Shown here in pieces: positions 650-30,378 of a stretch of DNA of 33,585 nucleotides. This DNA is from a virus. The notes beneath the pieces are model-generated. The model worked only from the letters and a program-made list of their open reading frames with translations, searched no databases and was not told the DNA's origin. The position numbers were made by a program, and so were the translations under genes. The stretch lies in IMG/VR virus record IMGVR_UViG_3300044464_000009, positions 1 to 33,585 of that record. One strand, 5' to 3'. Position 1 is the stretch's first letter; the number at the start of each line of letters is the position of its first letter.

Positions 650-3600
650 TCAGACTCCTCGTCGGTCAAGTGACGTAAGTGTGTGCTGTGAGGTCTTCAG
701 GGGGCCAGAAATAGCCGGACCGGCTGTGGGTCCGCCCTGGGGCTGTGGTCCGTTGGGTCCGGCTGAACGCGCGGCGTTCGCCCCTTGAAGGTACTGGACG
801 TGAGACTGAGACATCGTGCCGTCGATGGGCACCTGGAACATGATTGAAATCGATACCCTACGCGGATACGGGAGCGTCTCGGTCATCTTTGGCGCGGCCT
901 CGATCAGGACGCGTTGAGCTTCCGCAAAGAGCGCCGGGTAGACCACACGTAGAGTTTCGGCCCCTTCGAGGGTGACATGGCCATGGGCGAGATCTTCCAG
1001 TACCGAGGCCGGGTCATTCACGGCATGGACGTAGCGACCGAACGATTCAAGTGCCGCCTTGCTCGGCCGCCACTTGTCCCCACCTGGCAGCACCCCTGGC
1101 ATCGTCATCTGCTTGGGGGCCTTGGAGTCGAGGAAGGCGATCCCCCGTGCGGTCTGCGCCACGATGGCATCATGGAGCTCGGCATCGGCCATGTGATACC
1201 TGTCGCTGATGGCTTGGTCGATCGCGCCCGGTTGCTGCGCTCGCGAGATCTCGTCCATCCGCGCCGAGTAGAGATCCTGAGGGTCCCTGCTGGCAGGCTT
1301 CTGGCCGCCCGGGAACAACTTCGTGGCCAACGTAACTGCGGGGCCTGCCGCAAAGGTGGCAGCCGACTTCATGCCCTTGCCTCCAACGGTGAGGATGGTG
1401 TTGATTGCCGAGCTGATTCGGTCCCTCACGGCGGCTGCCTTGCTGGCGATGAGACCTTCGGTGGTCTTCTCGACTCCGCCGCCCTTCCTTCCCAGCACCC
1501 TCATTACCGCCCGCGCTTTCAGGAACAGTCCGAGGATGGGACCGATGACCGGGATCGCGCTAAGGACGGGCGTACGGACGCCTAGAGCCCGAAGGAGTTC
1601 AAGAGCCGTTCCAACATCTGCCGCTGCCCCCAGGGCACCTGATGCCACCGCGGCAGGCGGGATTTTACCCGCGGCCGCTGTCGCTGCTTTGGCCGTCGTA
1701 GCAGCTGATGCATCTGCTTGAGCAGCGCGCGCAGCCTTGAACGCAGCAGCATGCTCGGCCGCAGAAGGAGGAGCCTCCATACCGACCACCGTTACCAGCC
1801 CAGAAAGCGCGTCCTCATGATCGCCCAGCGCCTTAGCTGCCCTCGCGAGCTGGGGACCGATGTCATCGGTCGGCCTGACGCCAGCCTTGGCAAGAGCCTT
1901 GGCGATCGCGAGATCATCTCGGATGCCCGACATCTTGCCGCGCATCTCGCTATCCACGATGGTTTTCCCAATGCTTCGATGCTCGGCGATCTTCGCCTTC
2001 ATGCCACGGTCGACCACGGTGTTGCTCTTGCCGGACCCAACCAGCCCATGTTCCTCGAGAATGCCAGCAACGTCAGGAGGGAGTTCAGGCGGTGACCCCT
2101 CAAAGCCGAACAGCTTCATGAGGTCGTCCAGACTACCGGGTGGTTTGTCGACGCCATGTCGGAGTTCCTCGGCTGCGCTCTTACCAGCTGACCTTACCGT
2201 CGTCTTGTCGACCGGTTCGATACGCGGCTCAAGCCCAAGTCGCATCTCGCCTGACGGTGGGATGTCCATGGCTTCACCCGAGGCATCGAAGTACGAGCGC
2301 TTCTTGGGATCAAACCTTAGGTTTGAGTCCCTGATGTCAAACGTCGTCGTCCGGTCCGCACTTGATTCAGGTTGTGCAACACGCTCAGCTACCTGTTCTC
2401 TTAGATTGTCGGCAGCTTCACTCACCTTGGCGTAGTGCTTGCGTTCCTGTTCAGTCGCCCATGACTCCGCATGCTTGGCTTCGATTCCGGCGCGCCGATG
2501 GAATCTATCCCCCTCGTAGCCTCGGGATGTCTCGCTCGCCGATCCATACTTCTCGGTGAACGACTCCGAGATCCTTGAAGCTGCATTGATAGGGTCCTTA
2601 ACACCGCGGATCCGTGTTGCTTCTTCCTGTAAGAACTTGTACCCATCCATAGCCCATGCCGCCTGAAGATCATCCGGGAGGTTGCCTGCAACGGCGGAAT
2701 GGATCTCGCGCCGACGCTCTACCGAGGCCGCGGCTGCCTTCTTGGCTGCCGCTACACGCTTCGGATTCAGCCGTACGGGCTCCGATCCATGGCCAGGACC
2801 ACTCTGGAGTACTTCCTCACGTGCGATACGCTCTGCATCTGCACGGCTATGACCGCCTTCGTATTCGAGGATCGCGGCTCTTTCAGCCCATGCCTCTGTC
2901 GCGGCGCGATCCGCCCATTCACGCTCTACTTTATCCAGTGCAGCGGAATGTCCGCCCTCTTCTCGCATCGCCCTTCCGATGTTCGCAGCTACGTAGGCGT
3001 CTCGTGTCCTTGGGGTCGTTAGGTCTTTGAAAAATGCATCAAGATCCCCATATATTGGCTCATAGAATGGGTTGAGTGACTCGGCCTGTGCTCCAGTCTT
3101 CGCCTTGACATTTCGTCGTGCTAGCGCCTCCGATCGGAAATGGTCGGCAGCTTCACGGGTCTTCGCCGCCTTGGTGGCGACATACTCCGCCCGAGACGGG
3201 GCCCCCATGGCCGGCAAGGCTTCTCCGGCCGCGAGCTTGTCTTGCATCCCACGCAGGAGGGCCTCGAGATCGTCGCCACCACTAGATGTCGCCGCACCGC
3301 GGGCTACGTCATCGGCCGCCGGCGACGATCCAGTAGACCATTCGACCTTGATCGGGGCGTTTGCTTCGATCGCTGCTGCTAGCCGATGCCGGCCATCGGT
3401 GACCAGGATCTTGCCCTCCTTGTCGACCGTGAGTTTGATGGGCGAGCGCTGGCCTTCGTGGATCGCCTTCTTGGCGTTGTCCACACGCACCGAGTCGACT
3501 CCTCCACCTGGGGGCTCGTAGTACCCATGGTCCGCTATCACCTTGGCAGGCAGCGTCTGAGACAGATCAGCATCATGAGCTGACTCGTGTGCCTTGATCT

Positions 3601-4870
3601 TGGACCATTCCGGAACTTCGCTCACGCTGGCAGGTGGACGGCGCCCGGCGTTGATGGCCTCGAACGAGGAAGGAGTCGCGACGCCTGGAGTCTCGCCAAC
3701 CCCCGCCTCGGCAGCTGCCTTAGCAAGCTCCTCTGAGGACTTCTTGCCGCTCGCGCCAGGCGCGCCGAATTCACCAACCGGGACCCCAGGGAGCGCGCCC
3801 CCGAGATCGGGTAGCGTAGACCCGGGAACATGGACATTCGGCGGAAGCAGGCCAGAGAGCGCTTGCTCAAGGTCGGGATCGGCTTCGCTGGTCACCCAAT
3901 CCCTGAACTGGACCTTGGAGGCTTCGTACTTCTGAAGTGCTTCCTCGATCTGCGCCTTCTCGGCTCCGCCTGCCGCTTGATCTCCGAGCGCAGCAGGATC
4001 AGCGTCACCGAACATACGCCGGGTCACCTGTTCGCCAGCGGCAGCCTGTTCCGTCTTGGCGTTGATCAGTTCAAGCTTGCGCTTGGCGGCTGCAGCCATC
4101 GCATCGCCGTCGCTGACTGACTGGGCGATCGCCGCGGTCGCATCCTGCTGAACCCCATGCGCCGCTGCAGCCGTGACCTCTCGCTTCGGGAACAGCGCGC
4201 GCGCGCGCAGCAACGCCTCTCCTCCAAGGGTGAGCGCGCCACCGATGGGCGCCGCGAAGAGGGCGCCATGCCCCATCCCACCTATGAACCCCTCGGCCGA
4301 GAGCGGCTTATCTTCGAGGGCAACCTGCGAGAGGTAGCCACCGCCACCGTAGAGCGCCCCTTCGGCTGCAGCCCCGAGCGTGTGGGCGCCCACTCGAGTG
4401 GCAAGTCCAGCGCCTTCACCGGCCGCATGCTCGACGATCGACCGCCCGAGAGACGAGGTCAGGCCGGCGGGGGTTCTAGCTGCAAGTCGAGCTGCGATGC
4501 CAGCTCCAGCCTCGGGAGCGGCTGCGCCTCCGGACAGCAACGATGGGATGATCGCCCCAGCGATCTGCCCACCGATGGCGGTGTATGGATGCGCCTTGTT
4601 CAGAGCGCTGAGCGTGTGGCCTCCCCCCAGCGCATCGATGCCGACGTCCGACAGGCCTAGCGTGGCCCCGCTGAGAACATTGGCCGCGCCAGCCTTGAGC
4701 GCACCGGCCGCCCCACCGTAGAGATCCTGGTTGATGCCCTCCTCGACCCTGCCGAGATGTTGCTCATCAGATTCCGGAGTGAATCCTTGAGCTTGATACG
4801 CCGCGACTTGGCTCGGATCAACCGAGTAGGCTCGCCCTTCGTGATCGCGAACTGTTACCGATTCAGGCAT
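650..4870 (-). CDS. Polyvalent-type internal virion protein with ParB-like motif, 1406 aa
   Basis: This is a very large Ala/Gly/Glu-rich, mostly helical protein. The start is the ATG at 4870, which shares a TGATG junction with the previous gene and follows AGGA at good spacing; a GTG at 4891 is less likely. Residues about 430-510 hold a ParB/sulfiredoxin-type signature, with ILVTDGRHRLAAAIEA near 487-502 preceded by a segment like the ParB N-terminal domain. Near 660-675 is WAERAAILEYEGG, a helical motif that recurs in the 57-aa gene at 29538-29711. Gly/Ala-rich hydrophobic stretches occur near residues 55-125 and again in the C-terminal third (a segment with PVIGPILGLFL), suitable for membrane contact. 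Size, position after the tail genes and mixed domains fit an ejected internal or polyvalent protein. That role is inferred, not shown. Confidence 0.75.
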   Translation of the reverse strand: MPESVTVRDHEGRAYSVDPSQVAAYQAQGFTPESDEQHLGRVEEGINQDLYGGAAGALKAGAANVLSGATLGLSDVGIDALGGGHTLSALNKAHPYTAIGGQIAGAIIPSLLSGGAAAPEAGAGIAARLAARTPAGLTSSLGRSIVEHAAGEGAGLATRVGAHTLGAAAEGALYGGGGYLSQVALEDKPLSAEGFIGGMGHGALFAAPIGGALTLGGEALLRARALFPKREVTAAAAHGVQQDATAAIAQSVSDGDAMAAAAKRKLELINAKTEQAAAGEQVTRRMFGDADPAALGDQAAGGAEKAQIEEALQKYEASKVQFRDWVTSEADPDLEQALSGLLPPNVHVPGSTLPDLGGALPGVPVGEFGAPGASGKKSSEELAKAAAEAGVGETPGVATPSSFEAINAGRRPPASVSEVPEWSKIKAHESAHDADLSQTLPAKVIADHGYYEPPGGGVDSVRVDNAKKAIHEGQRSPIKLTVDKEGKILVTDGRHRLAAAIEANAPIKVEWSTGSSPAADDVARGAATSSGGDDLEALLRGMQDKLAAGEALPAMGAPSRAEYVATKAAKTREAADHFRSEALARRNVKAKTGAQAESLNPFYEPIYGDLDAFFKDLTTPRTRDAYVAANIGRAMREEGGHSAALDKVEREWADRAATEAWAERAAILEYEGGHSRADAERIAREEVLQSGPGHGSEPVRLNPKRVAAAKKAAAASVERRREIHSAVAGNLPDDLQAAWAMDGYKFLQEEATRIRGVKDPINAASRISESFTEKYGSASETSRGYEGDRFHRRAGIEAKHAESWATEQERKHYAKVSEAADNLREQVAERVAQPESSADRTTTFDIRDSNLRFDPKKRSYFDASGEAMDIPPSGEMRLGLEPRIEPVDKTTVRSAGKSAAEELRHGVDKPPGSLDDLMKLFGFEGSPPELPPDVAGILEEHGLVGSGKSNTVVDRGMKAKIAEHRSIGKTIVDSEMRGKMSGIRDDLAIAKALAKAGVRPTDDIGPQLARAAKALGDHEDALSGLVTVVGMEAPPSAAEHAAAFKAARAAQADASAATTAKAATAAAGKIPPAAVASGALGAAADVGTALELLRALGVRTPVLSAIPVIGPILGLFLKARAVMRVLGRKGGGVEKTTEGLIASKAAAVRDRISSAINTILTVGGKGMKSAATFAAGPAVTLATKLFPGGQKPASRDPQDLYSARMDEISRAQQPGAIDQAISDRYHMADAELHDAIVAQTARGIAFLDSKAPKQMTMPGVLPGGDKWRPSKAALESFGRYVHAVNDPASVLEDLAHGHVTLEGAETLRVVYPALFAEAQRVLIEAAPKMTETLPYPRRVSISIMFQVPIDGTMSQSHVQYLQGANAARSAGPNGPQPQGGPTAGPAISGPLKTSQHTLTSLDRRGV

Positions 4871-7050
4871 CAGTTCCTCGGAAGGATCCACTCCGGTGGC
4901 GCCTGAACTTGAGGATCGGCGGTAGAACGCCCCCCGCTGGTACGACCTGGGCCCGATGATGTGGTGGTAGATTCCACCGGGGACGGTCCGGCGTTGATGT
5001 TGTTCGTCAAGAGCTGCTGCGCATACTCTCGAACCCCAGCGATGCTCGATCGGGTCGCCGCATCGAGAATCATCGCGGCATGGCCGGATACCGACGGGTC
5101 GGGATCCTGAAGTTGCGCCGCGTTCGTTTCAAGCAGGGCCCGGGCTCCCGATGGGACGTCTGGATACTGCCGACCCTTGGCAGCCTCAGCCTGAACGACG
5201 GCCGGTGGGATCGCGGACGGGGCGTCAGGGTCCACATGGTACATGCCGCCAATCTTGGGCGCGAACCTACCCGTGGTCGGGTCATACACCGCGCCTGGAT
5301 CTGGGGCACCACCCTGAATCACCTGTAGTTGTTTGTCATCTGGGGTCTCCGCGGCCGGTGGCGGAGAAGTCGTATCGGTCCATTTGATCTCTGGTCCGTT
5401 ATAGCCGAGTGCCCCGATCTTTTCGTTGACCTTCGCTTGCAGATTCTGGTTGCTCTCCTCTAGGGCCGCAGATGCATCCCGGGCGAACGATGTAGGGTCG
5501 ACGCCTGACGTCGCCATCTTCTCGAAGAATTGTACGGTAGGCTCGCGAAATGCGATGATCCCATACGCATCATGGAGCTCGGCCGTAGCGGACTGCAGCC
5601 GGGTCATCTGACGTTGCCATTCGGGCCCCTTAATCCATGTGGATTCTCCACCGTGGTCATGGATGGCGCGGACCATTTGCCCAACTAGCCGATTGTACGC
5701 CGTGGCTCCGGCGATCATGTCCTTCTGCTTCTGAGCGATGGCAGGATCACCTGCGAGAACTAGATCTCCGTTAGGGTTGCGTAACGGCATCATCTTGCCA
5801 TCCGGCCCCGGCGCGAATACCGCCCGCTTGGATTCGTCATCAGAGAGTTTCCCTTGGGCCTTCAGGGCCAGGGCTGCAGCCTTGAGTTGCTGCTCCTCGT
5901 CAAACTTGGTCTTCTGCCAACTCTCCTCGACGAGGTTGTGGCGTCGGGTCTCGGCCGACGCTGCGCTAGCCGCCCTGATCTGTTGCTGCTGGAGCTGGAC
6001 CTGCGTTGCATGCTGCGCAGCGGAGATCTTGTGCGCGGCGGAGGATTGTTCAAGGAGTGCCGCCTGAGTCTGGCCGTTCGCCAGAGCCTCGGCGGTCCCG
6101 AACTTGGCTGCCGTCGCGAGCACTTTCTGCGCGAGCGAGTGGTCGATCTCCCCTAGGCGTGCTTGGATTACCGCCTGCTTGTCCTTGGAGAACGCGTCGT
6201 ACTTGTCCAGTTGATGTTCAGCACGAGCGCCGCGCTTCTCAAGCTGATCGCGTTGGTCCATCTGCGCCACCACCGACTGATGGGCCTTGGTCTGCAACAT
6301 CTGGATGACAGGGTTCGGCGCCGCGCCTTGGCCGGGGTTGTTGATGCCCAGGAACGCGTTACCGAGGCCGCTCAAAGCAATCCCGATCCCCCATTCTACC
6401 TTGTCTCCGATACCAGCGTCATGCCAGTACTTATTCTGATCGACCTTGTAGTTGTCCGCCTGCTTGTAGATCTGATCCACTACCGTTTGCTTCTCGGCGT
6501 GGGTCTTGGCCCATAGGTCTTGCTCGGTCTTCTGCTGCTTCTCGAGCACCGCTCGATCGGCGGTAGCCTTGTCGTAGTTGGCGATCTGCGCCTGCGCCTC
6601 AGCCGCCTTGACATCGGTCGCTCCGGAGTTGGCCTGCTGCGAACGAACGTCGGCCGTGTCCTGCGCGGCATTCGCTGTCGCGGTCTGCTGCTCTGGGCTT
6701 ACTGGGCGCGGTTGAGTGGTTGGCGTGGCTGCGGATTTCGGCTGCGGAGATCCTGGCGCGGACACCTTGAAGTCCGGACGTTGCTGATCAGGCTGCCCAT
6801 CGCCCAGGGGTTGGGGCGCGCTAGGTAACGCCTGAAACGACGGCGGTTGGAGTGCCATGGGGTCCGGGGCGATGGCTGGCGCTGGCACGTTTGGTTGAGG
6901 TACCCAACCAAGACCCTGAACCACCGATGGATGCAGGCCACCGAACGGGTCAGGCTGGGGAAGCGCCGCGGAACCGTCGTCCGGTGGCAGCGGGGGTTGA
7001 CCCGGGATTCCCATCCCAGCGAGAACCGATGACGGCAAGCCGAGCGGCAT
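4870..7050 (-). CDS. Predicted internal virion protein, Gln/Ala-rich coiled coil, 726 aa
   Basis: The ATG at 7050 overlaps the stop of the previous gene (TGATG) and follows a GAGG. The first 130 residues are Pro-rich and low complexity. Then comes a long helical Gln/Ala/Lys/Asp region with predicted coiled coil (about 130-450), interrupted by a hydrophobic segment with WGIGIALSGLGNAFLGI that could contact membrane. The C-terminal 150 residues are again Pro/Gly-rich and end PPEWILPRN. No enzymatic motif is visible. Position between the S74-like protein and the 1406-aa protein, and this composition, match internal or ejection proteins of podovirus-like phages. Family assignment is by context, so the exact role is uncertain. 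Confidence 0.75.
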   Translation of the reverse strand: MPLGLPSSVLAGMGIPGQPPLPPDDGSAALPQPDPFGGLHPSVVQGLGWVPQPNVPAPAIAPDPMALQPPSFQALPSAPQPLGDGQPDQQRPDFKVSAPGSPQPKSAATPTTQPRPVSPEQQTATANAAQDTADVRSQQANSGATDVKAAEAQAQIANYDKATADRAVLEKQQKTEQDLWAKTHAEKQTVVDQIYKQADNYKVDQNKYWHDAGIGDKVEWGIGIALSGLGNAFLGINNPGQGAAPNPVIQMLQTKAHQSVVAQMDQRDQLEKRGARAEHQLDKYDAFSKDKQAVIQARLGEIDHSLAQKVLATAAKFGTAEALANGQTQAALLEQSSAAHKISAAQHATQVQLQQQQIRAASAASAETRRHNLVEESWQKTKFDEEQQLKAAALALKAQGKLSDDESKRAVFAPGPDGKMMPLRNPNGDLVLAGDPAIAQKQKDMIAGATAYNRLVGQMVRAIHDHGGESTWIKGPEWQRQMTRLQSATAELHDAYGIIAFREPTVQFFEKMATSGVDPTSFARDASAALEESNQNLQAKVNEKIGALGYNGPEIKWTDTTSPPPAAETPDDKQLQVIQGGAPDPGAVYDPTTGRFAPKIGGMYHVDPDAPSAIPPAVVQAEAAKGRQYPDVPSGARALLETNAAQLQDPDPSVSGHAAMILDAATRSSIAGVREYAQQLLTNNINAGPSPVESTTTSSGPGRTSGGRSTADPQVQAPPEWILPRN

Positions 7051-8075: not shown

Positions 8076-11000
8076 CTAGGCGCTACGCGCCGCTCCGACT
8101 TTGAATGCGGGGCCGACCCCGCCGCCGATCAGCAGGAGTTCAGAGAGTTCGAAAGAAGCGCCCGGGGTGATCCCGGTAGCTATGGCTGTGGCGAACCGGT
8201 TGAGAGCATTCTCGATAGTCAAGGAGATCCCTGAGCATACACCGGGCCCCTTGCCGATAAACAGAGCAGACAGCCGTAGGTTGCTGTTACCCAACACCCA
8301 ATCACCGGTACCTACCGTGAAATTGCTTGCACTTGTAACAACTTGCCCTGCGATCGCTGTATTCGGAGTCGACACGAACACGGTGCCACCGAAGAGGTCT
8401 CGGATCGCCACCCTAACCGCCCCGGTCATTCGATCAACCACCGCTAGTCCAGCATGCGGCTGCCCTACAAAGTAGGCATTTGTACCCAAACGCGCCCCAT
8501 ATATGGCAGCTGGACCTACGTTTATTCCGATCGCGGTTCCATCCGTCCCTGTCAGTGACCATCCGTTGATAAATGTGTTCGATGCGTTCCCGCAGATCTG
8601 CCCGAACGCCCCAGGGAGCGCGTCCCACTCCCCCACCCATCCCACGATTAGCTCATCCGTTAATCCAAGATTGAAGATGGTATTGTTACCGCTATCGAAT
8701 GTTCCAGAACTCGACACGGTGAACCCTACCGCCCGGTCCGCGCCGCCGCGGGGCCCTGCCAAACCGTAAATCAGTCCCGCTCCAGACGCCGTAAGGGTCA
8801 TTCCGCCTACCGTGGGAGCCAGGTTCCCCGAGGTCTCATCGCATAGCCATACATGTGTGAACGTAGCCCCAGGTATGGCGGTTAGCGCTGCGTTGTACCC
8901 ACCGGTCAAGCGGTCTTCGATCCGGAATGAAATCGCCTGGCACCGTTTGTTCAGATGAATCCTCCGCTGATATCTCGTTCCTGCACCGCCCACGCCGCCA
9001 TACGGCCCCGAACCATACGATCCAGCGCCATACAGTGATGGTGACCGATTGTTGTTCACGTCGTTGAGGATCTCCGGGCTGTAACTTTCGTTGTAGTCCG
9101 TGCGATACCTGACGACGAGCGTGTGATCAGAAATGAATCGTCCAAGGAAATAGGCGTACAGGATTCTCTGCCAGCCCTGTAGATATTCCAAAAAGTGGAT
9201 CCATGCGGTTTCGATCACCATCGGGATCGCAGAGTTGTCGTCGAGGTACAATCCGGGGGTCTCGACGAACACCCGTGAATCATTCCTTAGGTAGTAGTAG
9301 GACCCATCGACCACGATCGCATCGAGACCTGTGTGGTTCGTGAATGTACTCCACTGGTTTCGCTTGTAGTCCCACATCAATGTTCTACCTGAATCAGTCA
9401 GGTAGACGATGCGCTCTACCGTTGGGATGAGCGTGGCGCGCGTAATAGCCTGCTCATCGTAGGCTTGAACGTCGGTCCCGATGTCGACGACCTGCCGATC
9501 ACGGGTGAGCATCATGATGCCCTTGCTAGACTGAAACGTCAGACCGACCGGAGTGGGGCCCACCGAGGCAGCGCTGATGCACCCCACGTCTGTGGAGACC
9601 AGCTCCACCGGGGTGAAGGCGTTCGCCTCTGGCGCCGCGCTGGGGTCCTGCAACGGACCGGGACCGCCGAACACGTAGACGGCGGTTTCCGAGAACGGAA
9701 TCACCGTATCGTCCATCATGCCGATCGCGGTGATCGGTCCACCGAACGGGTCTTTGCGGAGCGACAGATCTACCGGAGCCTCCAGGGCGACATCATCTGA
9801 GATCTGTTGCGAGTATCGGATGACATGCGGGTCCGTGGTATCGGTCCAAAACAGTCGGCTCTTGCCTACGGCCAGGATTCCTCCGTGCCATGGAGCTGGG
9901 GCGTTCGGCAAGATCCCGCCGTTCGTGTAGAGCGGCTCACGCTTCACGAGCGCCAGATCGTCGAGGTTGTCGCTGAAGCTCACCGTGTCGACGGTCGGAT
10001 CGTTGAGTACGTACCGGTTGTCTCCAGACGTGACGGTGACATCGTTGCTCGTGACCTTGTACATCGCGAGCGTGGAATCTGTGCCGGTGGCGCCGGCCGG
10101 CGAGCGCGCGATGCAGATGCGCACGTTGGCGAACCGAGTGAGCCGGCATGTCGGGGGCGTCATCGTGAATTTCTTCGGCCCCCCCGTCATCGTGACGAGC
10201 AGCTTCACGCTCGGGGGGCCGCGATGGAGTTCGCCTTGCGCATCGACCGCCTCATACCACCACGCGTAGAGGTACGTCCCGTTCGGGATCGCGCCGGCCG
10301 CGCCAATCGCGATCGCCGTGGTCATGTCGACCGGTACGCCTGACGTGTCGAATCCATAATCCGGCGCGCAGTGGAAGTCCGCCTCATGCCATGCGTCGCC
10401 GTCGTAGTGCATCGGCATCGACGAGGATAGATACAGGCCGCGCCCGAGTTGGGCGGTCTGATACGCGGGCAAGAAATCAAGCGTCGCCAGCTTGATGCCC
10501 TGCTCCGAGAACTGATCCCCGTTCTGGCTGCTCAGCTGAATCCGGTACGGGATGCACACCGCGTGCTGGCGCGAGTAGACATCGGTTTCGGCGAGATCGA
10601 CCGCCATAACGCCAGGGAGATGTGTGGTCCACGCACGCGTCCCAGCTCCGGTCGTTCGCATGAGCGCGCCAGACGCCTCCCCGGGCATGAGCCGCGACAC
10701 GATCACGGCATTTGGCGCTGCGACCCCGCTCGCCCCGCTCAGGCGAAGTGCGGAGACGTAGGGGAAGAACCGCGCGGCGTGCGCGACCATCACGTAAACA
10801 TCACCGACAAATCCGGCCGTGGCCGTTGCCGCCCCCCCGTCATGCCATGCGCGAGACACGAGACTATGCCCACGCAAAATTTTCGGCGTGCTCACGACCC
10901 CATTGTCAGTGTTGATGCTTCCGCTCTCGACCATGCACAGGTCGCTGCGTGCCGCCGTGATTTCAGCTGCCCACCAAAAGGTGGGAGCGAGCAATGGGCT

Positions 11001-12020
11001 AGCCTGTGACGATGCTTGCCATCCCAGGGTAAGCTGTGTATATGTCCCACTCGTGGCGATGGGGAGGAATCCCTCCAATCCTATGAACGAGCTACTAATA
11101 ACGCCTGCGTTCAATTGCGTCGCTCCGCCCACCCACATCACCGCGATCGTGTTGAATCCGTCGGCAAAGTAGGATATGGCTACCGACCCGGTTACAGTGG
11201 CCAACCAGGTTACCGCGCTGGCTAGCCCGGTGGCTGGCGAACCAATCACCCCAGATGGATGGATGTAGGCCGTACGGTATCCACCTACTACCGCCCATAT
11301 CATAACCCCGGGTCTTATCACGCTCGAGTTGGACGGAGCGAATGGGGCCGATTCGGCGTCGTACGATGGGTTGGTTGCGTCAAGGTCTCCTGTGAGTGTC
11401 GACACGACCGGAGTCGTCACGGGGTGCGCGGGGTTGACGATCGCGATCTGGATGCTGCCGAGGTCCGATCGCGTCCACAGCACGTGAATCACTTCTCCGA
11501 CCGCGATGCATGTCGGATCACGCGCCAGTGTAGCGCTATCGATCTGGGTCTGGGGAAGCAGAACCCGTCCGGTCGCGGCCTCGATCGCCTCGCACCATAC
11601 CCCTCCCCGGGAGTCCTCCCACGCTACGACGCGCACGCCGTTGCGCTCTGCGATGTCGGGCTGCGTCTGGTAGGTCCCCGTCCGGGCGATAGGAAGCGTG
11701 GTTGCCGTGGTGGCCGCAACCTCCCCCGTGTCCGCCCAGCGATCCACCGATGGCCGGTAGCTGTAGCAGCGCTTATCGGTGAAGAGGAGCACCTCACCGT
11801 CACGCTCCGCGAGTCCACGCGCATCCGTGATGTTGCCACCACCGTCCTGGATCTGCGTCGATAGCGCGCGGTATCCGTTTCGCTTGCTTAGCGTGGAAAG
11901 CTTCGTGAGAACACAGTTCTGCAGGTCTAGAAGCTTCGTGGTCGGAGTCTGCTTCGCCTCGGTTCGCGTATCAACGCCGCCCGAGAACTGGATCGCTAAC
12001 GGAGCGGGGGTGATGGTCAT
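8076..12020 (-). CDS. Nozzle/tail-hub-like structural protein with C-terminal LamG-type domain, 1314 aa
   Basis: The N-terminus (FSGGVDTRTE, then KLLDLQNCVL and SKRNGYRAL) is the type seen in P22 gp10 or T7 gp12-like tail nozzle proteins, which open with a short gene-map-like segment before beta-propeller repeats. Repeated strands such as SRLFWTDTTDPHVIRYS, GIMMLTRDRQVVDIGTD and GRTLMWDYKRNQWS support a propeller through about residue 1000. Residues about 1051-1290 form a LamG/concanavalin-like beta sandwich beginning HVWLCDETSGNL, an unusual addition. The ATG at 12020 has no visible Shine-Dalgarno. It would be translationally coupled only if an antisense ORF across 12017-12385 is expressed. 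Structural role is inferred from order after the adaptor and fibre genes; the precise name is uncertain. Confidence 0.75.
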   Translation of the reverse strand: MTITPAPLAIQFSGGVDTRTEAKQTPTTKLLDLQNCVLTKLSTLSKRNGYRALSTQIQDGGGNITDARGLAERDGEVLLFTDKRCYSYRPSVDRWADTGEVAATTATTLPIARTGTYQTQPDIAERNGVRVVAWEDSRGGVWCEAIEAATGRVLLPQTQIDSATLARDPTCIAVGEVIHVLWTRSDLGSIQIAIVNPAHPVTTPVVSTLTGDLDATNPSYDAESAPFAPSNSSVIRPGVMIWAVVGGYRTAYIHPSGVIGSPATGLASAVTWLATVTGSVAISYFADGFNTIAVMWVGGATQLNAGVISSSFIGLEGFLPIATSGTYTQLTLGWQASSQASPLLAPTFWWAAEITAARSDLCMVESGSINTDNGVVSTPKILRGHSLVSRAWHDGGAATATAGFVGDVYVMVAHAARFFPYVSALRLSGASGVAAPNAVIVSRLMPGEASGALMRTTGAGTRAWTTHLPGVMAVDLAETDVYSRQHAVCIPYRIQLSSQNGDQFSEQGIKLATLDFLPAYQTAQLGRGLYLSSSMPMHYDGDAWHEADFHCAPDYGFDTSGVPVDMTTAIAIGAAGAIPNGTYLYAWWYEAVDAQGELHRGPPSVKLLVTMTGGPKKFTMTPPTCRLTRFANVRICIARSPAGATGTDSTLAMYKVTSNDVTVTSGDNRYVLNDPTVDTVSFSDNLDDLALVKREPLYTNGGILPNAPAPWHGGILAVGKSRLFWTDTTDPHVIRYSQQISDDVALEAPVDLSLRKDPFGGPITAIGMMDDTVIPFSETAVYVFGGPGPLQDPSAAPEANAFTPVELVSTDVGCISAASVGPTPVGLTFQSSKGIMMLTRDRQVVDIGTDVQAYDEQAITRATLIPTVERIVYLTDSGRTLMWDYKRNQWSTFTNHTGLDAIVVDGSYYYLRNDSRVFVETPGLYLDDNSAIPMVIETAWIHFLEYLQGWQRILYAYFLGRFISDHTLVVRYRTDYNESYSPEILNDVNNNRSPSLYGAGSYGSGPYGGVGGAGTRYQRRIHLNKRCQAISFRIEDRLTGGYNAALTAIPGATFTHVWLCDETSGNLAPTVGGMTLTASGAGLIYGLAGPRGGADRAVGFTVSSSGTFDSGNNTIFNLGLTDELIVGWVGEWDALPGAFGQICGNASNTFINGWSLTGTDGTAIGINVGPAAIYGARLGTNAYFVGQPHAGLAVVDRMTGAVRVAIRDLFGGTVFVSTPNTAIAGQVVTSASNFTVGTGDWVLGNSNLRLSALFIGKGPGVCSGISLTIENALNRFATAIATGITPGASFELSELLLIGGGVGPAFKVGAARSA

Positions 12021-12044
12021 GGGGCGCCGCGCTCGATTGCGGTG

Positions 12045-12073
12045 TTGACAAATGCGCTAGCCGCCCCTATGAT
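12045..12073 (+). promoter_or_regulatory. Near-consensus sigma-70 promoter for a leaderless plus-strand gene
   Basis: TTGACA at 12045-12050 is followed by a 17-base spacer and TATGAT at 12068-12073. Only six bases (GCCATC) separate the -10 box from the ATG at 12080, so the predicted transcription start coincides with the start codon. There is no room for a Shine-Dalgarno. This is the strongest promoter-like match I found in the window, and it points against all flanking genes. Confidence 0.75.
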
Positions 12074-12079
12074 GCCATC

Positions 12080-12361
12080 ATGTACAGAGTCACGATTGCT
12101 CTCACCCTCATCATGTGTGGATGCTGGACGATTGGGCATACCGATGAGCCCGACATGCCAGCTCATGTGGTCATCCATACACCAGCTCGCCCCATGCTCA
12201 ATTGCGGATCGGCCCCGATAGAGCCGGCATGGTCCATCCGTTTCGTGGTTGACGCGGAGCCATATTTCGCGATTCCCCAGACTCACTGGATCGATCTCGA
12301 TAGGTGGATCTCCGATATGCGTGAATGGAGGGATTGTGTTACCATAGCGCTGAATCTCTAA
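12080..12361 (+). CDS. Small exported or lipoprotein-like protein, autonomous moron-type gene, 93 aa
   Basis: This is the only convincing plus-strand gene. It almost fills the gap between two minus-strand virion genes and has its own promoter directly upstream. The N-terminus MYRVTIALTLIMCGC is a short signal peptide with a lipobox-like MCGC (weak, Met at -3), followed by a mature part with further Cys and Trp. A Pro-rich centre (SAPIEPAW) leads to a C-terminal helix DLDRWISDMREWRDC. Small lysis lipoproteins (outer-membrane spanins) have this general plan, but the match is only architectural; superinfection exclusion or lysogenic conversion are alternatives. Translation would be leaderless. 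A competing minus-strand ORF covers the same bases (see rejected items). Confidence 0.6.
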   Translation: MYRVTIALTLIMCGCWTIGHTDEPDMPAHVVIHTPARPMLNCGSAPIEPAWSIRFVVDAEPYFAIPQTHWIDLDRWISDMREWRDCVTIALNL

Positions 12362-12374
12362 TGAATGCCGAGAT

Positions 12375-13532
12375 CTACGGGTCATCAAAATCCACCTCCG
12401 CTCCATAGAGTTTGCTGGACCCGTTACCGGCTATATTCGTGATAAAAATAGAGTAGTTAGTGCCAGCGACTACCGTAGTTGTTAGTCCAGTAACTTGCAG
12501 TGTCTGATTGGTACCCGCCCCGGATGATGCCGCCGATGTGGCGATAGTGGTTGCTGTCCCTACGGAGGTGACGCTGGCTACTGAAAACGAGTACGTCGTC
12601 GGACCAGTAGCACTATCTTGGATAAACAGACGAACGGCTAGTATTCTCTTCCCAGAAGCTAGCAGTATGCCACAGGCGTATCCGGTCAAAAGCGGATTGC
12701 CGGTTAGCGCCCCGCCCAAAACCCGGGTACCGCCGCTTGTTACGAAATCGTATGTACTAATCACCAATGTTCGGGTGCCGTGCTTGAATCTTCCGGTTCC
12801 GCTAGCCGTAACGCTCTTATTAGTAGCTAGAGCGAGATCGTTTGCTATAGTATTGTCTGCGACTAATTGCCCGGCAGAAGTCATTTGGATGACATTCTGC
12901 ACCGAAGGAAGAGCCGTCGGATAGGTCACGGCGTAGCTCGCGGCTAGGGCTGCTGGGCTGGCCAGTCTTACGCGATTCGTCGGCACTCCCGCCGCCGGGT
13001 TCGCCTTGAACTCGTACAGGTCAACGTCGGAACTTCGCATGCGAGCGTACTGGCGAACCGATGCTCCCACCTGCTGCTGGAACCAGTAGCTATCGGTCGC
13101 GTCATCGAACACCACGAGCGCCCCGGTTGCGGCGTAGTCGCCACCGATCCCGCCGGTGAACGCGGCAACGTTCAGCGCCGAACCGGCAGTAACCTTGAAG
13201 TTGACCCCGCCGAACGTTCGATAATAGAGTTCGTTGTCCGCAGAATTCAAAAATAGGGCGCCAGCCAGCGAGGTTACCGTGCTCGCCGCCTGGGGGGAGA
13301 AGTCGATGGCTCGCAGATCCGTGATGGCCCACTGGGACCCACCGCTGGACCATGTGACGTCACCGTTGATGTTCAGGCCGTTGGACGGTACTCGCACACC
13401 CTTGCCGGACGAATGATCGTGGCCATCCACCGTGGTCCGGATGGCGGTGTCCATGATCGGCGCCCATACGTCAGCATCGGAGAGGTCCGATGGCCAGACG
13501 ATGAGCATGTTGCTGGACGGTGACTGCGGCAT
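12375..13532 (-). CDS. Tail fibre or spike-like structural protein, 385 aa
   Basis: The ATG at 13532 directly follows the TAG of the upstream gene and is preceded by GGAGG eight bases away. The N-terminal 60 residues contain GHDHSSGKGVRVPSNGLNI, the HDHxxG motif common near the start of phage fibre or appendage proteins. The rest is Thr/Ser/Ala/Gly-rich beta sequence with short repeats (SVTASGTG, ATTIATSAASSGAGT), typical of trimeric fibres, ending in a beta-rich C-terminal head. No chaperone or enzymatic domain is visible. It probably contacts the host or decorates the tail; the receptor cannot be judged. Composition and gene order support a virion appendage. Confidence 0.7.
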   Translation of the reverse strand: MPQSPSSNMLIVWPSDLSDADVWAPIMDTAIRTTVDGHDHSSGKGVRVPSNGLNINGDVTWSSGGSQWAITDLRAIDFSPQAASTVTSLAGALFLNSADNELYYRTFGGVNFKVTAGSALNVAAFTGGIGGDYAATGALVVFDDATDSYWFQQQVGASVRQYARMRSSDVDLYEFKANPAAGVPTNRVRLASPAALAASYAVTYPTALPSVQNVIQMTSAGQLVADNTIANDLALATNKSVTASGTGRFKHGTRTLVISTYDFVTSGGTRVLGGALTGNPLLTGYACGILLASGKRILAVRLFIQDSATGPTTYSFSVASVTSVGTATTIATSAASSGAGTNQTLQVTGLTTTVVAGTNYSIFITNIAGNGSSKLYGAEVDFDDP

Positions 13533-13856
13533 CTAGAACGCCTCCACTGTGGCTCCGGGCTGAGCGACCCCGATGCACGTAAGCGTCATCTGCGAACCGG
13601 TCGCGCTCTTGAGCGACCAGGCCCAGGCCGCGTTGGCCACGGTCGGCGTGACGGTCGCCCCGCTCGGCTTGCGACCTAGCCCGTGGTTGATGACGTTGTC
13701 GCCGACGATGAGATCTACCGTGACGACCGAGCGATCCCGAAGCTGGTCAGCTGCACGTTGCGCGCTCTGGATGATCTGCCTGGTCTGTGCATCGCCGCTG
13801 ACAGGGGCGAACTGACGAGGACGAGAGGTAGGACGAGCGGGCCTAGAGGTAGGCAT
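13533..13856 (-). CDS. Small tail-associated protein, 107 aa
   Basis: The start chosen is the ATG at 13856, five bases after GGAGGT and overlapping the upstream stop as TGATG; in-frame GTG and TTG codons lie just upstream. The N-terminus is basic and Pro/Arg-rich (MPTSRPARPTSRPRQF), followed by a helix and a compact beta domain with LIVGDNVINHGLGRKPSGATVTP. The I-x-HGLGRxPxG signature is frequent in small proteins next to phage fibre genes, where the domain is thought to be structural. I cannot name it further. Translation is probably coupled to the adaptor gene and to the fibre gene that follows. Confidence 0.7.
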   Translation of the reverse strand: MPTSRPARPTSRPRQFAPVSGDAQTRQIIQSAQRAADQLRDRSVVTVDLIVGDNVINHGLGRKPSGATVTPTVANAAWAWSLKSATGSQMTLTCIGVAQPGATVEAF

Positions 13857-14563
13857 CACCAACCTCCATCGTCGTCGTTGTAGCCAAGGACTCGAGAATC
13901 TCGCGGAGGCCCATTGGGGTCTAGGTAGACCGGTTGGTCGGCATCACGGTTGCTGGCGTCAGAGCGCAGCCCCATGATCGCTCTCGCGATGTCGCGCTCA
14001 ACGCTCGTGGTGCTGAGTTCGCTGCGATCTAGGCAGAACTTCTGAGCCAAGTAGACCACCACGAGCTCCTCTGCAGGCACGTCGAACGTAACCGCCGTGG
14101 TGTCGGCGATGTTCGCGAACTGGACCGGGAGGGGGATCCAGAAGATACGAGCGGTTCCGGCCGGTGGGACCGGGACGAACACCAAGTTCGCCCCCTGCAT
14201 CCGGTAGCGCAGCCTGCTGATCGACGTCGCCGGGACCGCGCTGTAGCGATAGGACCCGGATAGGTCGTGCGGCAGGCATCGGCGGAAGCGAACGCCATCG
14301 GACGAGACGTCTAGATGGCGAAGCTGGTAGAAGTTGGGCGCGATCGTCGCCAGCGGGTAGGACGCCGTCCCAGCGACGATCGCGAAGGTTGTGTCGAGCG
14401 TGTAGTAGTCGCGCCACGCCTTCACCATCAACGCGTAGCCTTCGAGTAGCCCGTAGTTCAGCGCCTGCAGGAGAACGTCCGGCGTGATGTCGGTGGAGTT
14501 CTCCCACGAGCCGACCTGTTGGACGGCTAGCGATAGCTGAGCGAAGGTACGCGTGTAGGCCAT
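13856..14563 (-). CDS. Head-to-tail adaptor (gp4/gp11-like), 235 aa
   Basis: The protein opens with two helices (TRTFAQLSLAVQQVGSW, then LLQALNYGLLEGYALMVKAW), followed by a beta domain (FAIVAGTASYPLATIAPNFYQLRHLDV) and a C-terminal helix with VYLAQKFCLDR. This layout is typical of podovirus adaptor proteins that dock under the portal, and the gene lies between capsid and tail genes as expected. The acidic, Gly-rich tail (GYNDDDGGW) may be flexible. The start ATG at 14563 has no obvious Shine-Dalgarno and lies three bases after the upstream stop, so translation may depend on coupling. The family call rests on fold pattern and position. Confidence 0.7.
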   Translation of the reverse strand: MAYTRTFAQLSLAVQQVGSWENSTDITPDVLLQALNYGLLEGYALMVKAWRDYYTLDTTFAIVAGTASYPLATIAPNFYQLRHLDVSSDGVRFRRCLPHDLSGSYRYSAVPATSISRLRYRMQGANLVFVPVPPAGTARIFWIPLPVQFANIADTTAVTFDVPAEELVVVYLAQKFCLDRSELSTTSVERDIARAIMGLRSDASNRDADQPVYLDPNGPPRDSRVLGYNDDDGGW

Positions 14564-24519: not shown

Positions 24520-24788
24520 TTCTTCCCCCCTTGCGGCTTCGCTTCGCCGCGCATGAAAATCTGCGCGATGTTCGCCTCGGGAACGATCGCGTCGTAGTGA
24601 TCGGTCGGGACGATCCGGTGCTCCAGGATGACGCTCCCAGGGCGTTCGCCCCTCGACGGATCTCCCATGCGCGCGGTGATCTTTCCGGCCGTTGCCGAGC
24701 TCGCTGGGTTTCCCTTATCCCAGTACTGCTGTGGGATCCCGCCAATGTCGACCAGCTCCTTGAACTTCACGCGGTAGATTTCGCTCAC
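24516..24788 (-). CDS. Small hypothetical protein, 90 aa
   Basis: It starts with GTG at 24788 overlapping the GroES-like gene stop, with AGAGGA ten bases upstream. The sequence (MSEIYRVKFKELVDIGGIP, then GSVILEHRIVPTDHYDAIV) is beta-rich with a basic Gly/Lys tail. No motif or family is recognised. Coupled translation with the co-chaperonin gene suggests joint expression rather than shared function. Confidence 0.6.
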   Translation of the reverse strand: MSEIYRVKFKELVDIGGIPQQYWDKGNPASSATAGKITARMGDPSRGERPGSVILEHRIVPTDHYDAIVPEANIAQIFMRGEAKPQGGKK

Positions 24789-25144
24789 TGGATGGTGATC
24801 CTCTGCCCATCATGCGGGCTCACGAGGGACGATACCTTGTCGAGGTCCCGGACGCGCATTCCGACGTCGGCGAAGCGGATCAGTAGCATCTCCTCGGAGT
24901 CGACGGGAAACACGATTTGCCCCTTCGACTGTCGGAAGAAGATGATCACGTCACCGACGTTCACCGGCATCGAGATGAGAATCCCGTTAGCGTTGTGCCA
25001 ACCCTCGCTTGCAGCTGCCACTTCAGCGCGCTGCCAAGGCGTGTTGTCGATCGCCATCTCGGGGATGATCAGTCCACCTCGAGTCTTGTTTCCCGTGGCT
25101 AGGACGCGCACGAGCAGAAGGTCTCCAAAGAGTTCGTAATTCAT
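24785..25144 (-). CDS. groES: GroES-like co-chaperonin, 119 aa
   Basis: The N-terminus LLLVRVLATGNKTRGGLIIPE fits the GroES start and mobile loop, with the GGLII hydrophobic contact that docks on GroEL. Then come a beta strand RAEVAAASEG, the VNVGDVIIFF core strand (GroES: VKVGDIVIF) and EEMLLIRFADVGMRV at the C-terminal end. Length is near the host family norm plus a short extension. Phage co-chaperonins such as T4 gp31 replace host GroES to fold capsid proteins, so a role in capsid assembly is a reasonable inference. No GroEL gene is visible, so it must use the host ring. Confidence 0.85.
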   Translation of the reverse strand: MNYELFGDLLLVRVLATGNKTRGGLIIPEMAIDNTPWQRAEVAAASEGWHNANGILISMPVNVGDVIIFFRQSKGQIVFPVDSEEMLLIRFADVGMRVRDLDKVSSLVSPHDGQRITIQ

Positions 25145-28467: not shown

Positions 28468-28664
28468 TGCTCCTTGATGACACTGTACCACCCGCTCCAC
28501 CCGTCGCAGAGCGCGATCTCGGACTGCCTGAACATGTGGGCAACGCCGTCACGTAGCAACAAACGACCGTTGACGCGATCGACCCCATTGCGGGCCAGGC
28601 TTGCGCAGTTGGCGCACGGCGTGAAGTACAGGTGGAGCCGGATCCGTTCCACTCGCGCGCTCAT
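28464..28664 (-). CDS. Small hypothetical protein, 66 aa
   Basis: The start is the ATG at 28664 (MSARVERIRLHLYFTPCANC), overlapping the lipoprotein stop (ATGA); the longer frame to 28835 is a shadow of that gene. It contains CANC and a single later Cys, and a Trp-rich C-terminus GWSGWYSVIKEQ. No ribosome site is visible, so coupling is likely. Function unknown. Confidence 0.55.
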   Translation of the reverse strand: MSARVERIRLHLYFTPCANCASLARNGVDRVNGRLLLRDGVAHMFRQSEIALCDGWSGWYSVIKEQ

Positions 28665-29275
28665 GGGATGAGGGTGCAGGTGTACCCAGCATCGTGGCGC
28701 TCGCACCAGAAGGCCGAGCACCAGGTGCTGTTGGCGAGGTCTATCAGGCAGAGGCCACGGACAAACCTGGGCGTCCCATCGTTGAGATCCCAGTCGACCG
28801 TGCAGGAGTAGTTCCCATCCTCCTGACGCGTACAATCCACTGACGATACCAACGGTCGTTGCCCGAGCGAGAGCCCGGCACGCCGAGCTGCGTTACTCGC
28901 CGCGTTGAGCGTGGCCTGACCACGCGTCCCATCACCAGGGTGACAGAGCGCATCGGGGTCGGGCAGCGGCTCACCGCCCGGTGCGATCGGGTCGGAGATG
29001 CACGGGTCGTCACCTCCGCCATCGGGAAGGACCGGGATTAGGATGCTGCAGGTGCAACCTGTTCGTGGGTTGCAGCAGCACACGCCTCCGCTGACGACCG
29101 CGCAGCATTGGCCGTCCTCCCCGCAGGCCACTAGATTGGGGTCAGTGACCCCCGTGAACTCCGCGAGCATCGCGGCGGCGATCGCGAAGTCCTCTTTCTT
29201 GTTCGTGTCACTCTCCCCCTGAGTGGATGTCTGCATACATGAACACACCATCAGTAGCATCGCGAATTTTCTCAT
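28661..29275 (-). CDS. Cys-rich lipoprotein, 204 aa
   Basis: The start is the ATG at 29275, with an ATGA junction to the upstream gene. MRKFAMLLMVCSC is a short signal peptide ending in a VCSC lipobox-like site (C13). The mature part has a helix FAIAAAMLAEFTG, then a dense Cys block (GEDGQCCAVVSGGVCCCNP, TGCTCSI), a Gly/Asp/Pro-rich linker and paired Cys in the C-terminal half (CTRQEDGNYSC, ending CTLIP). It probably sits in the cell envelope, stabilised by disulfides. The Cys/Asp/Gly style resembles myxobacterial surface proteins. Function unknown: host-surface modification, exclusion of other phages or lysis-related roles are possible. Confidence 0.65.
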   Translation of the reverse strand: MRKFAMLLMVCSCMQTSTQGESDTNKKEDFAIAAAMLAEFTGVTDPNLVACGEDGQCCAVVSGGVCCCNPRTGCTCSILIPVLPDGGGDDPCISDPIAPGGEPLPDPDALCHPGDGTRGQATLNAASNAARRAGLSLGQRPLVSSVDCTRQEDGNYSCTVDWDLNDGTPRFVRGLCLIDLANSTWCSAFWCERHDAGYTCTLIP

Positions 29276-29538
29276 CGTTGACACCATACGCTTGTCCCAT
29301 TCTGATGCAAGGTCGCACCAGTACAATGTAGCAAGCCAGATACAGGTTCTGGTCCATCCAGATCGCGCCTAAGTTTCGCATCCTCGAGGTCATCCTGCGG
29401 TCGACCGAGCACCGGCGCGATCTGGTAGGAACCATCCTGTCGCGCCCTGGTCATGTACCAGCCCGCGGGCGCTCGCAGGTGCTGGCAATGCACCACGCAA
29501 CACAACACCACGAGCAGGACGACGAGCAGGCGCGGCAT
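29272..29538 (-). CDS. Small membrane-anchored or exported protein, 88 aa
   Basis: The start is the ATG at 29538 (TGATG with the 57-aa gene stop). MPRLLVVLLVVLCCVVHC is a strongly hydrophobic N-terminal segment, acting as a signal or membrane anchor. A 65-residue soluble part follows, with a charged helix (RPQDDLEDAKLRRDLD) and a C-terminal Cys pair. It is coupled to the lipoprotein gene that follows. This pairing of an anchored protein with a lipoprotein recalls spanin pairs, but the second protein is far larger than an outer spanin. I treat it as unknown. Confidence 0.6.
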   Translation of the reverse strand: MPRLLVVLLVVLCCVVHCQHLRAPAGWYMTRARQDGSYQIAPVLGRPQDDLEDAKLRRDLDGPEPVSGLLHCTGATLHQNGTSVWCQR

Positions 29539-30165: not shown

Positions 30166-30378
30166 TCATCCCCGGATCGTTAGAGAGTACGCTCCGTACC
30201 TAGCCGTCTTCACAGCGTCGATCAATCCAGCTTTGATCGCCCGATGGACCGCCGCGTAGCCGAACCGTCGGCTCGGTCCGATGTGTTCAGCGACCGGAAG
30301 GATCGCGCAGCCAGGGTGGTTGGTGACGTAGTTCACGGCCGCCTGCATCTGCGGTCCAACTCGGTTCGTTTTGGTCAT
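30166..30378 (-). CDS. Winged-helix-like DNA-binding protein, 70 aa, leaderless
   Basis: The sequence (GPQMQAAVNYVTNHPGCAIL, then FGYAAVHRAIKAGLIDAV, then YGAYSLTI) looks like a small winged helix: a helix, a recognition helix AAVHRAIKAGLI and a beta wing. There is no Shine-Dalgarno. The promoter at 30385-30413 places the predicted transcription start on its ATG, so it is likely leaderless and the first gene of a transcript running into the RHH gene. It may act as a repressor or regulator. Family naming is by pattern only. Confidence 0.65.
   Translation of the reverse strand: MTKTNRVGPQMQAAVNYVTNHPGCAILPVAEHIGPSRRFGYAAVHRAIKAGLIDAVKTARYGAYSLTIRG

Follow-up and report, generated by a model that had tools for sequence, protein, structure and literature searches.

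A putative lipoprotein gene with a leaderless-type promoter occupies an exchangeable antisense slot in the virion operon of uncultivated soil phages

The window analyzed here is the complete IMG/VR virus record IMGVR_UViG_3300044464_000009 (33,585 bases, positions 1 to 33,585), which belongs to a tailed phage whose portal, adaptor, and terminase genes are P22/SU10-like. Its virion operon is carried on the minus strand and contains one short plus-strand gene, hereafter the slot gene. As the initial annotation had claimed, both flanking genes (8076-12020 and 12375-13532) are encoded on the opposite strand, and the same holds for the other virion genes with homologues. The convergent neighbor encodes a fiber-like protein in which a conserved N-terminus is followed by a hypervariable C-terminal beta domain (conservation of 0.73 versus 0.40 in alignment A4). 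This domain adopts a carbohydrate-binding module (CBM)-like fold in the structural model, with Foldseek matches to CBM folds at E values of about 3e-4 to 1e-3, and the combination is what a fiber tip would be expected to show, although the protein matches no assigned family. The operon ends with a 1,413-aa protein (650-4891, minus strand) bearing a ParB-like domain at residues 438 to 538 (phrog_1033, E=7e-8). Elsewhere on the minus strand, the window encodes a GroES-like co-chaperonin of its own (24785-25144; phrog_3188, E=1e-10) and a Cys-rich protein (28661-29326) that matches no family and includes a stretch resembling a signal peptide (MRKFAMLLMVCSC...).

The region upstream of the slot gene reads exactly as first described, i.e., TTGACA, a 17-base spacer, TATGAT, and six bases (gccatc) followed by the ATG at 12080, and it is the sole 11/12 sigma-70-like match within 10000-14500. 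With a -35 box that begins at -35 and a -10 box spanning -12 to -7 relative to the A of the ATG, transcription initiated in the conventional way would start at the start codon itself. A search of the same interval (10000-14500) yielded no intrinsic terminator after the gene. The ORF at 12080-12361 on the plus strand comprises 93 codons and translates to a 93-aa protein (MYRVTIALTLIMCGCWTIG...THWIDLDRWISDMREWRDCVTIALNL). The short signal peptide with MCGC and the Trp-rich tail noted in the initial annotation were both recovered: the N-terminus is hydrophobic, and three Trp residues, two of them conserved in homologues, lie within 14 residues near the C-terminus. The signal peptide and lipobox were judged by eye, and MCGC is noncanonical in that it departs from [LVI][ASTVI][GAS]C. 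In the AlphaFold model, a disordered linker joins the signal helix to a C-terminal helix; with a mean pLDDT of 64, the structure is too uncertain for a meaningful fold match.

Table 1. Features of the slot region, of the rest of the window, and of related phages
Feature	Location or members	Strand	Basis or remark
-35 element TTGACA	12045..12050	+	Starts exactly 35 nt before ATG; sequence
-10 element TATGAT	12068..12073	+	-12 to -7 from ATG; sequence
Slot gene for a predicted lipoprotein of 93 aa, with a leaderless design	12080..12361	+	Translation; homologues in L011, L021, L033
Predicted signal peptide, residues 1-14	12080..12121	+	Sequence; predicted helix 3-17
Presumed lipidated Cys15, lipobox MCGC	12122..12124	+	Sequence and homologues (MAGC, LTGC, LAAC)
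Cys42, invariant in four homologues	12203..12205	+	Alignment A3; possible disulfide with Cys86
Predicted C-terminal helix, residues 67-92, invariant W76, W83, C86	12278..12355	+	AlphaFold pLDDT about 75-85 over most; alignment A3
Large virion-operon protein, 1,314 aa	8076..12020	-	Divergent from the slot gene's promoter; 59-73% identity in relatives
Fiber-like virion gene	12375..13532	-	Convergent with the slot gene; alignment A4, model, Foldseek
Overlapping ORF, 129 aa, judged spurious	12017..12406	-	No homologue in relatives, no family match, codon-position GC not gene-like
Second leaderless-type gene, 70-aa product, weak MarR-like match	30166..30378	-	Preceded by TTGACA-17-TAGAGT-6-ATG; not part of the slot
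Window-type homologue L011	11163-11414		Antisense, same slot
Window-type homologue L021	4729-4998		Antisense, same slot
Window-type homologue L033	1733-1942		Antisense, same slot
Slot group one	Window, L011, L021, L033
Slot group two	L002, L003, L012		114-116 aa, NP[IV][ML]G motif
Slot group three	L007
Slot group four	L015		With HEVAH
Slot group five	L019/L020/L027
G003 dyad copies	Pieces L037:2808, L038:188, L039:1281, 6058, 7142, 11962, 1246, 14340

The 93-aa protein has no direct relatives in IMG/VR or among cultured phages, a single-protein scan with the L021 slot member matched only itself, and the family lacks conserved stretches that an alignment-based scan could use. Its family became visible only through the same slot in relatives reached via the neighboring genes: the fiber-like and large virion proteins, used as baits, gathered some 20 contigs and one contig from a metagenome-assembled genome (MAG), the terminase being too divergent to reach many relatives. 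An antisense gene for a small protein is present in the same slot, between the fiber-like gene and a virion gene of ~1,070 to 1,340 aa, in 11 distinct lineages, including the window. All 12 slot ORFs carry a hydrophobic signal peptide, and a lipobox-like Cys is found in all except L032a. In at least three relatives the slot is empty, with the virion genes overlapping by 4 bp (L008 and L009) or abutting (L026), and no lipoprotein gene occupies it in C187, the other contig of this phage group from the MAG.

Homologues of the window's slot ORF occur in the slot of three other contigs, two recognized by BLASTP (2e-6 and 3e-6, as single comparisons) and the third by profile match. The group shows 25 to 31% identity to the window's protein, and Cys42, Pro49, Trp76, Trp83, and Cys86 are invariant among its four members (alignment A3); a Cys42-Cys86 disulfide is probable on this pattern. 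Slot occupants altogether form at least five groups without detectable similarity to one another (Table 1), and the L032 slot holds two further ones (L032a and L032b). L007, L015, and L033 have the end of the promoter and the first codons (CATGGTaggcgcATGCGCAC) in common and differ in their mature proteins, which looks as if the cargo had been exchanged while the start stayed fixed. The L015 lipoprotein (2912-3367, minus strand) contains a zinc-protease-like HEVAHCALG motif and has no Pfam match. Beside the L021 slot gene, a tail-fiber-like gene with a signal peptide and collagen-like repeats (GATGATG) is inserted on the virion strand (5134-5871, plus strand).

The spacing between promoter and start codon is conserved across these genes. 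TTGAC starts 34 to 35 nt before the ATG in 9 of the 12 slot genes, for which the chance is about 3e-19 against the background of every ATG in these genomes; the exceptions are L012, L032a, and L032b, the last with TTGTGC at that place. The -10 box keeps its second-position A and sixth-position T in 10/12. Across 481 kb of relatives, the distance from TTGACA to ATG peaks sharply at 35 (18 occurrences, versus about 1 to 2 at other distances), and no peak appears for GTG or TTG in the same 481 kb. A sharp peak restricted to ATG implies that the promoter is leaderless in design and that the group uses such promoters generally, the slot gene thus being one case among others. Promoters of this type mostly precede short non-virion genes. 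In G003, a dyad (TTGACA-N4-YGTCCA) overlaps the -35 box; seven of its eight copies have an ATG 35 to 36 nt downstream, the slot gene among them, and the dyad is absent from the other six genomes examined. It is likely a phage operator. Given that the slot promoter in G003 has the dyad of non-virion genes, the slot gene would belong, at least there, to a phage-controlled regulon apart from the virion operon.

One relative (L033) lies in a MAG named "Proteobacteria bacterium", in which two contigs of the phage group and no 16S sequence were found. Omp85 proteins were detected in that MAG and in two genomes of its phylum with distant homologues, and the hosts of the group are likely diderm. The data indicate that this phage group, whose hosts are apparently diderm, depends on many promoters of the leaderless type. 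Across 378 further genomes from the phylum of the MAG, matches to the slot protein were at chance level and were discarded. Tyrosine-recombinase (PF00589) matches in G008 (35590-36036) and G009 (47039-47461) suggest that some of these phages are temperate.

Because antisense genes recur in the same slot across the 11 lineages and the site is empty in three relatives, the slot gene is very probably an autonomous lipoprotein moron. The earlier description of the gene as autonomous, leaderless, and moron-like thus gains support from comparative sequence data, namely, the conserved promoter-to-ATG spacing, the presence or absence at a single slot, and the exchange of lipoproteins. We propose that the gene is driven by its own sigma-70-type promoter, antisense in the virion operon, and that its transcript begins at the AUG, or a base or two from it, which would allow leaderless translation independent of the late operon. 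After export and lipidation at Cys15, the product would reside in the outer membrane, the mature protein having a flexible linker, a C-terminal helix, and one probable disulfide. In relatives, the slot holds genes for unrelated lipoproteins preceded by a similar promoter, or is empty. The lipoprotein probably alters the outer surface of the infected cell, e.g., against rival phages, or aids lysis. In the former case, it would modify the envelope of the infected or lysogenic cell such that a receptor is jammed or masked, leading to superinfection exclusion. Taken as a whole, a swappable moron for an outer-membrane lipoprotein, most likely acting in superinfection exclusion, is the best explanation of the locus, to which we assign a probability of roughly 0.45. 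Tentatively, and with less confidence than for that reading, the leaderless promoter may be part of an exchange cassette, in which fast-changing surface lipoproteins directed at receptors or competitors, the HExxH one included, are swapped beside the fiber tip and switched on by a phage operator together with non-virion genes. With a fixed address for swappable lipoprotein genes in uncultivated soil phages, position alone would suffice to collect new exclusion or lysis lipoproteins.

Lysis, exclusion, or host conversion had been suggested initially as functions; the comparison narrows these to roles for an outer-membrane lipoprotein and does not decide between exclusion and lysis. Superinfection exclusion is slightly favored over an orphan o-spanin, and as a mechanism for the window's lipoprotein we hold it to be possible, at somewhat less than even odds. 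It is favored by the fiber-like neighbor with its hypervariable CBM-like tip and by the traits of known exclusion lipoproteins, which are small and anchored in the outer membrane, with an intramolecular disulfide and a receptor-binding gene next to their own (PMC9586334; Rtp45, PMC12685063). The probable diderm nature of the MAG containing L033, based on Omp85, points the same way, as does the existence elsewhere of a lysis cassette with its own lipobox protein, in relatives with and without the window-type gene. Llp is expressed early according to the title of Decker 1994 (cited in PMC9586334). Counting against exclusion, the slot occupant showed no clear link to the C-terminal type of the fiber in 14 loci, whereas cor tracks receptor type in Drexlerviridae (PMC13164509). 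The fiber-like protein may also not be the receptor-binding protein; beta-helix and pectate-lyase-like proteins are encoded near the lysis genes. No PDB chain matched alignment A3 at E values up to 10, although structures of Llp and Rtp45 are published, and the best profile match of the window's protein is to an Rz-like spanin.

The strongest competitor, which we consider possible but doubtful, is an orphan Rz1-like o-spanin. According to this explanation, the window-type lipoprotein supplies the outer-membrane component of a spanin and pairs at lysis with a distant inner-membrane protein of the lysis cassette, perhaps one with a C-terminal membrane helix and a short periplasmic coil. The linker and C-terminal helix with a Cys would fit such a role. 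The window's protein and, independently, the L021 protein both have phrog_812 ("Rz-like spanin") as their best PHROG (E=0.0011 each over nearly the full length, to which the signal peptide contributes), and the mature window protein matches phrog_812 alone, at E=0.1. For L011 the best matches are phrog_456 (0.068) and Pfam LysC (0.2), and L033 matches phrog_812 at 0.85; the top named Foldseek matches, which are not significant, include Rz-1 and an o-spanin. However, no match remains for L021, L011, or L033 once the signal peptide is removed, and hhalign alignments to P2 LysC and BcepNY3 Rz-1 cover the signal peptides only and are no better than that of an unrelated slot lipoprotein. In surveyed spanin pairs, one gene is embedded in the other, overlaps it, or lies close by (PMC6139136), whereas the slot gene has fiber-like and large virion genes as neighbors and no adjacent i-spanin gene. 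Its promoter is of the non-virion type, with an operator common to non-virion genes in G003, and relatives keeping the lysis cassette have unrelated lipoproteins or nothing at the slot. That cassette is located at the far end of the virion operon, outside the window, in relatives with and without the window-type gene. It encodes one protein that ends in a membrane helix and another in which a holin-like part is fused to a lipobox domain; the cassettes that were read also encode an endolysin (GH25 in G003, G001, and G009). Since the cassette is distant and has its own lipobox, the slot gene neither adjoins an i-spanin gene nor is the sole candidate for a lysis lipoprotein. In the cassettes of L037 (4981-5913, minus strand), L035 (3201-3815 of the reversed stretch 2000-7000), and L044 (12300-16000), holin-like membrane helices share one frame with a lipobox and a Cys...Cys domain, and the lipobox is often immediately preceded by an ATG; a lipoprotein is possibly nested in frame inside the holin gene.

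An unlikely alternative to both exclusion and lysis is that the slot serves as a cargo bay for varied envelope proteins and that its occupant in the window is a general lysogenic or lytic conversion lipoprotein. The diversity of occupants, with at least five unrelated ones and an HExxH metalloprotease-like motif (HEVAH) in L015, and the integrase-like genes of some relatives would agree with this. Nonetheless, no integrase match was found in the window, G001, G002, G005, or G006, and the window's protein has no host-like homologue above chance in the 378 further genomes of that phylum to which the MAG belongs. Finally, an accidental slot ORF and promoter, with the 129-aa minus-strand ORF that covers the region (12017-12406) as the real gene or with non-coding DNA, is highly improbable and already contradicted by the comparison, since homologues in three relatives and a conserved promoter spacing support the plus frame, the minus-strand ORF has neither a homologue in the relatives searched nor a family match or gene-like codon-position GC, and the outcome named beforehand as fatal to the plus-strand gene, conservation of the minus frame at 12017-12385 with a broken plus frame, was the opposite of what was found.

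Among known systems, exclusion lipoproteins, o-spanins, and phage morons come closest to the slot gene. Like T5 Llp, T1/phi80 Cor, and Rtp45, its product is small, is predicted to be an outer-membrane lipoprotein, and contains an internal pair of Cys residues. As for Llp and Cor, whose genes lie beside the tail receptor-binding gene (PMC9586334; PMC13164509), the slot gene appears to have its own promoter, lies beside a fiber-like gene, and is absent from some relatives. The slot protein has no detectable sequence similarity to these three proteins, and its gene is antisense with a promoter of leaderless design, in a slot filled by unrelated families. The o-spanins (lambda Rz1, P2 LysC, and phrog_812) resemble it as short lipoproteins with a linker and a C-terminal helix, and there is a weak profile match to phrog_812. 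In contrast to o-spanins, the slot gene has no neighboring i-spanin, appears to have its own promoter, lies far from the lysis cassette, and is exchanged for unrelated lipoproteins; with P2 LysC, the match is limited to the signal peptide. A terminator of its own is often listed for a moron but is not essential. As with phage morons, which are autonomous inserted genes (accessory loci; PMC7067206), the slot gene would be expressed from its own promoter on the opposite strand and is present or absent between otherwise adjacent virion genes. It differs from such morons in that no terminator was found after it, in a leaderless design common to other genes of the same phages, and in its one fixed slot with a recurring lipoprotein cargo.
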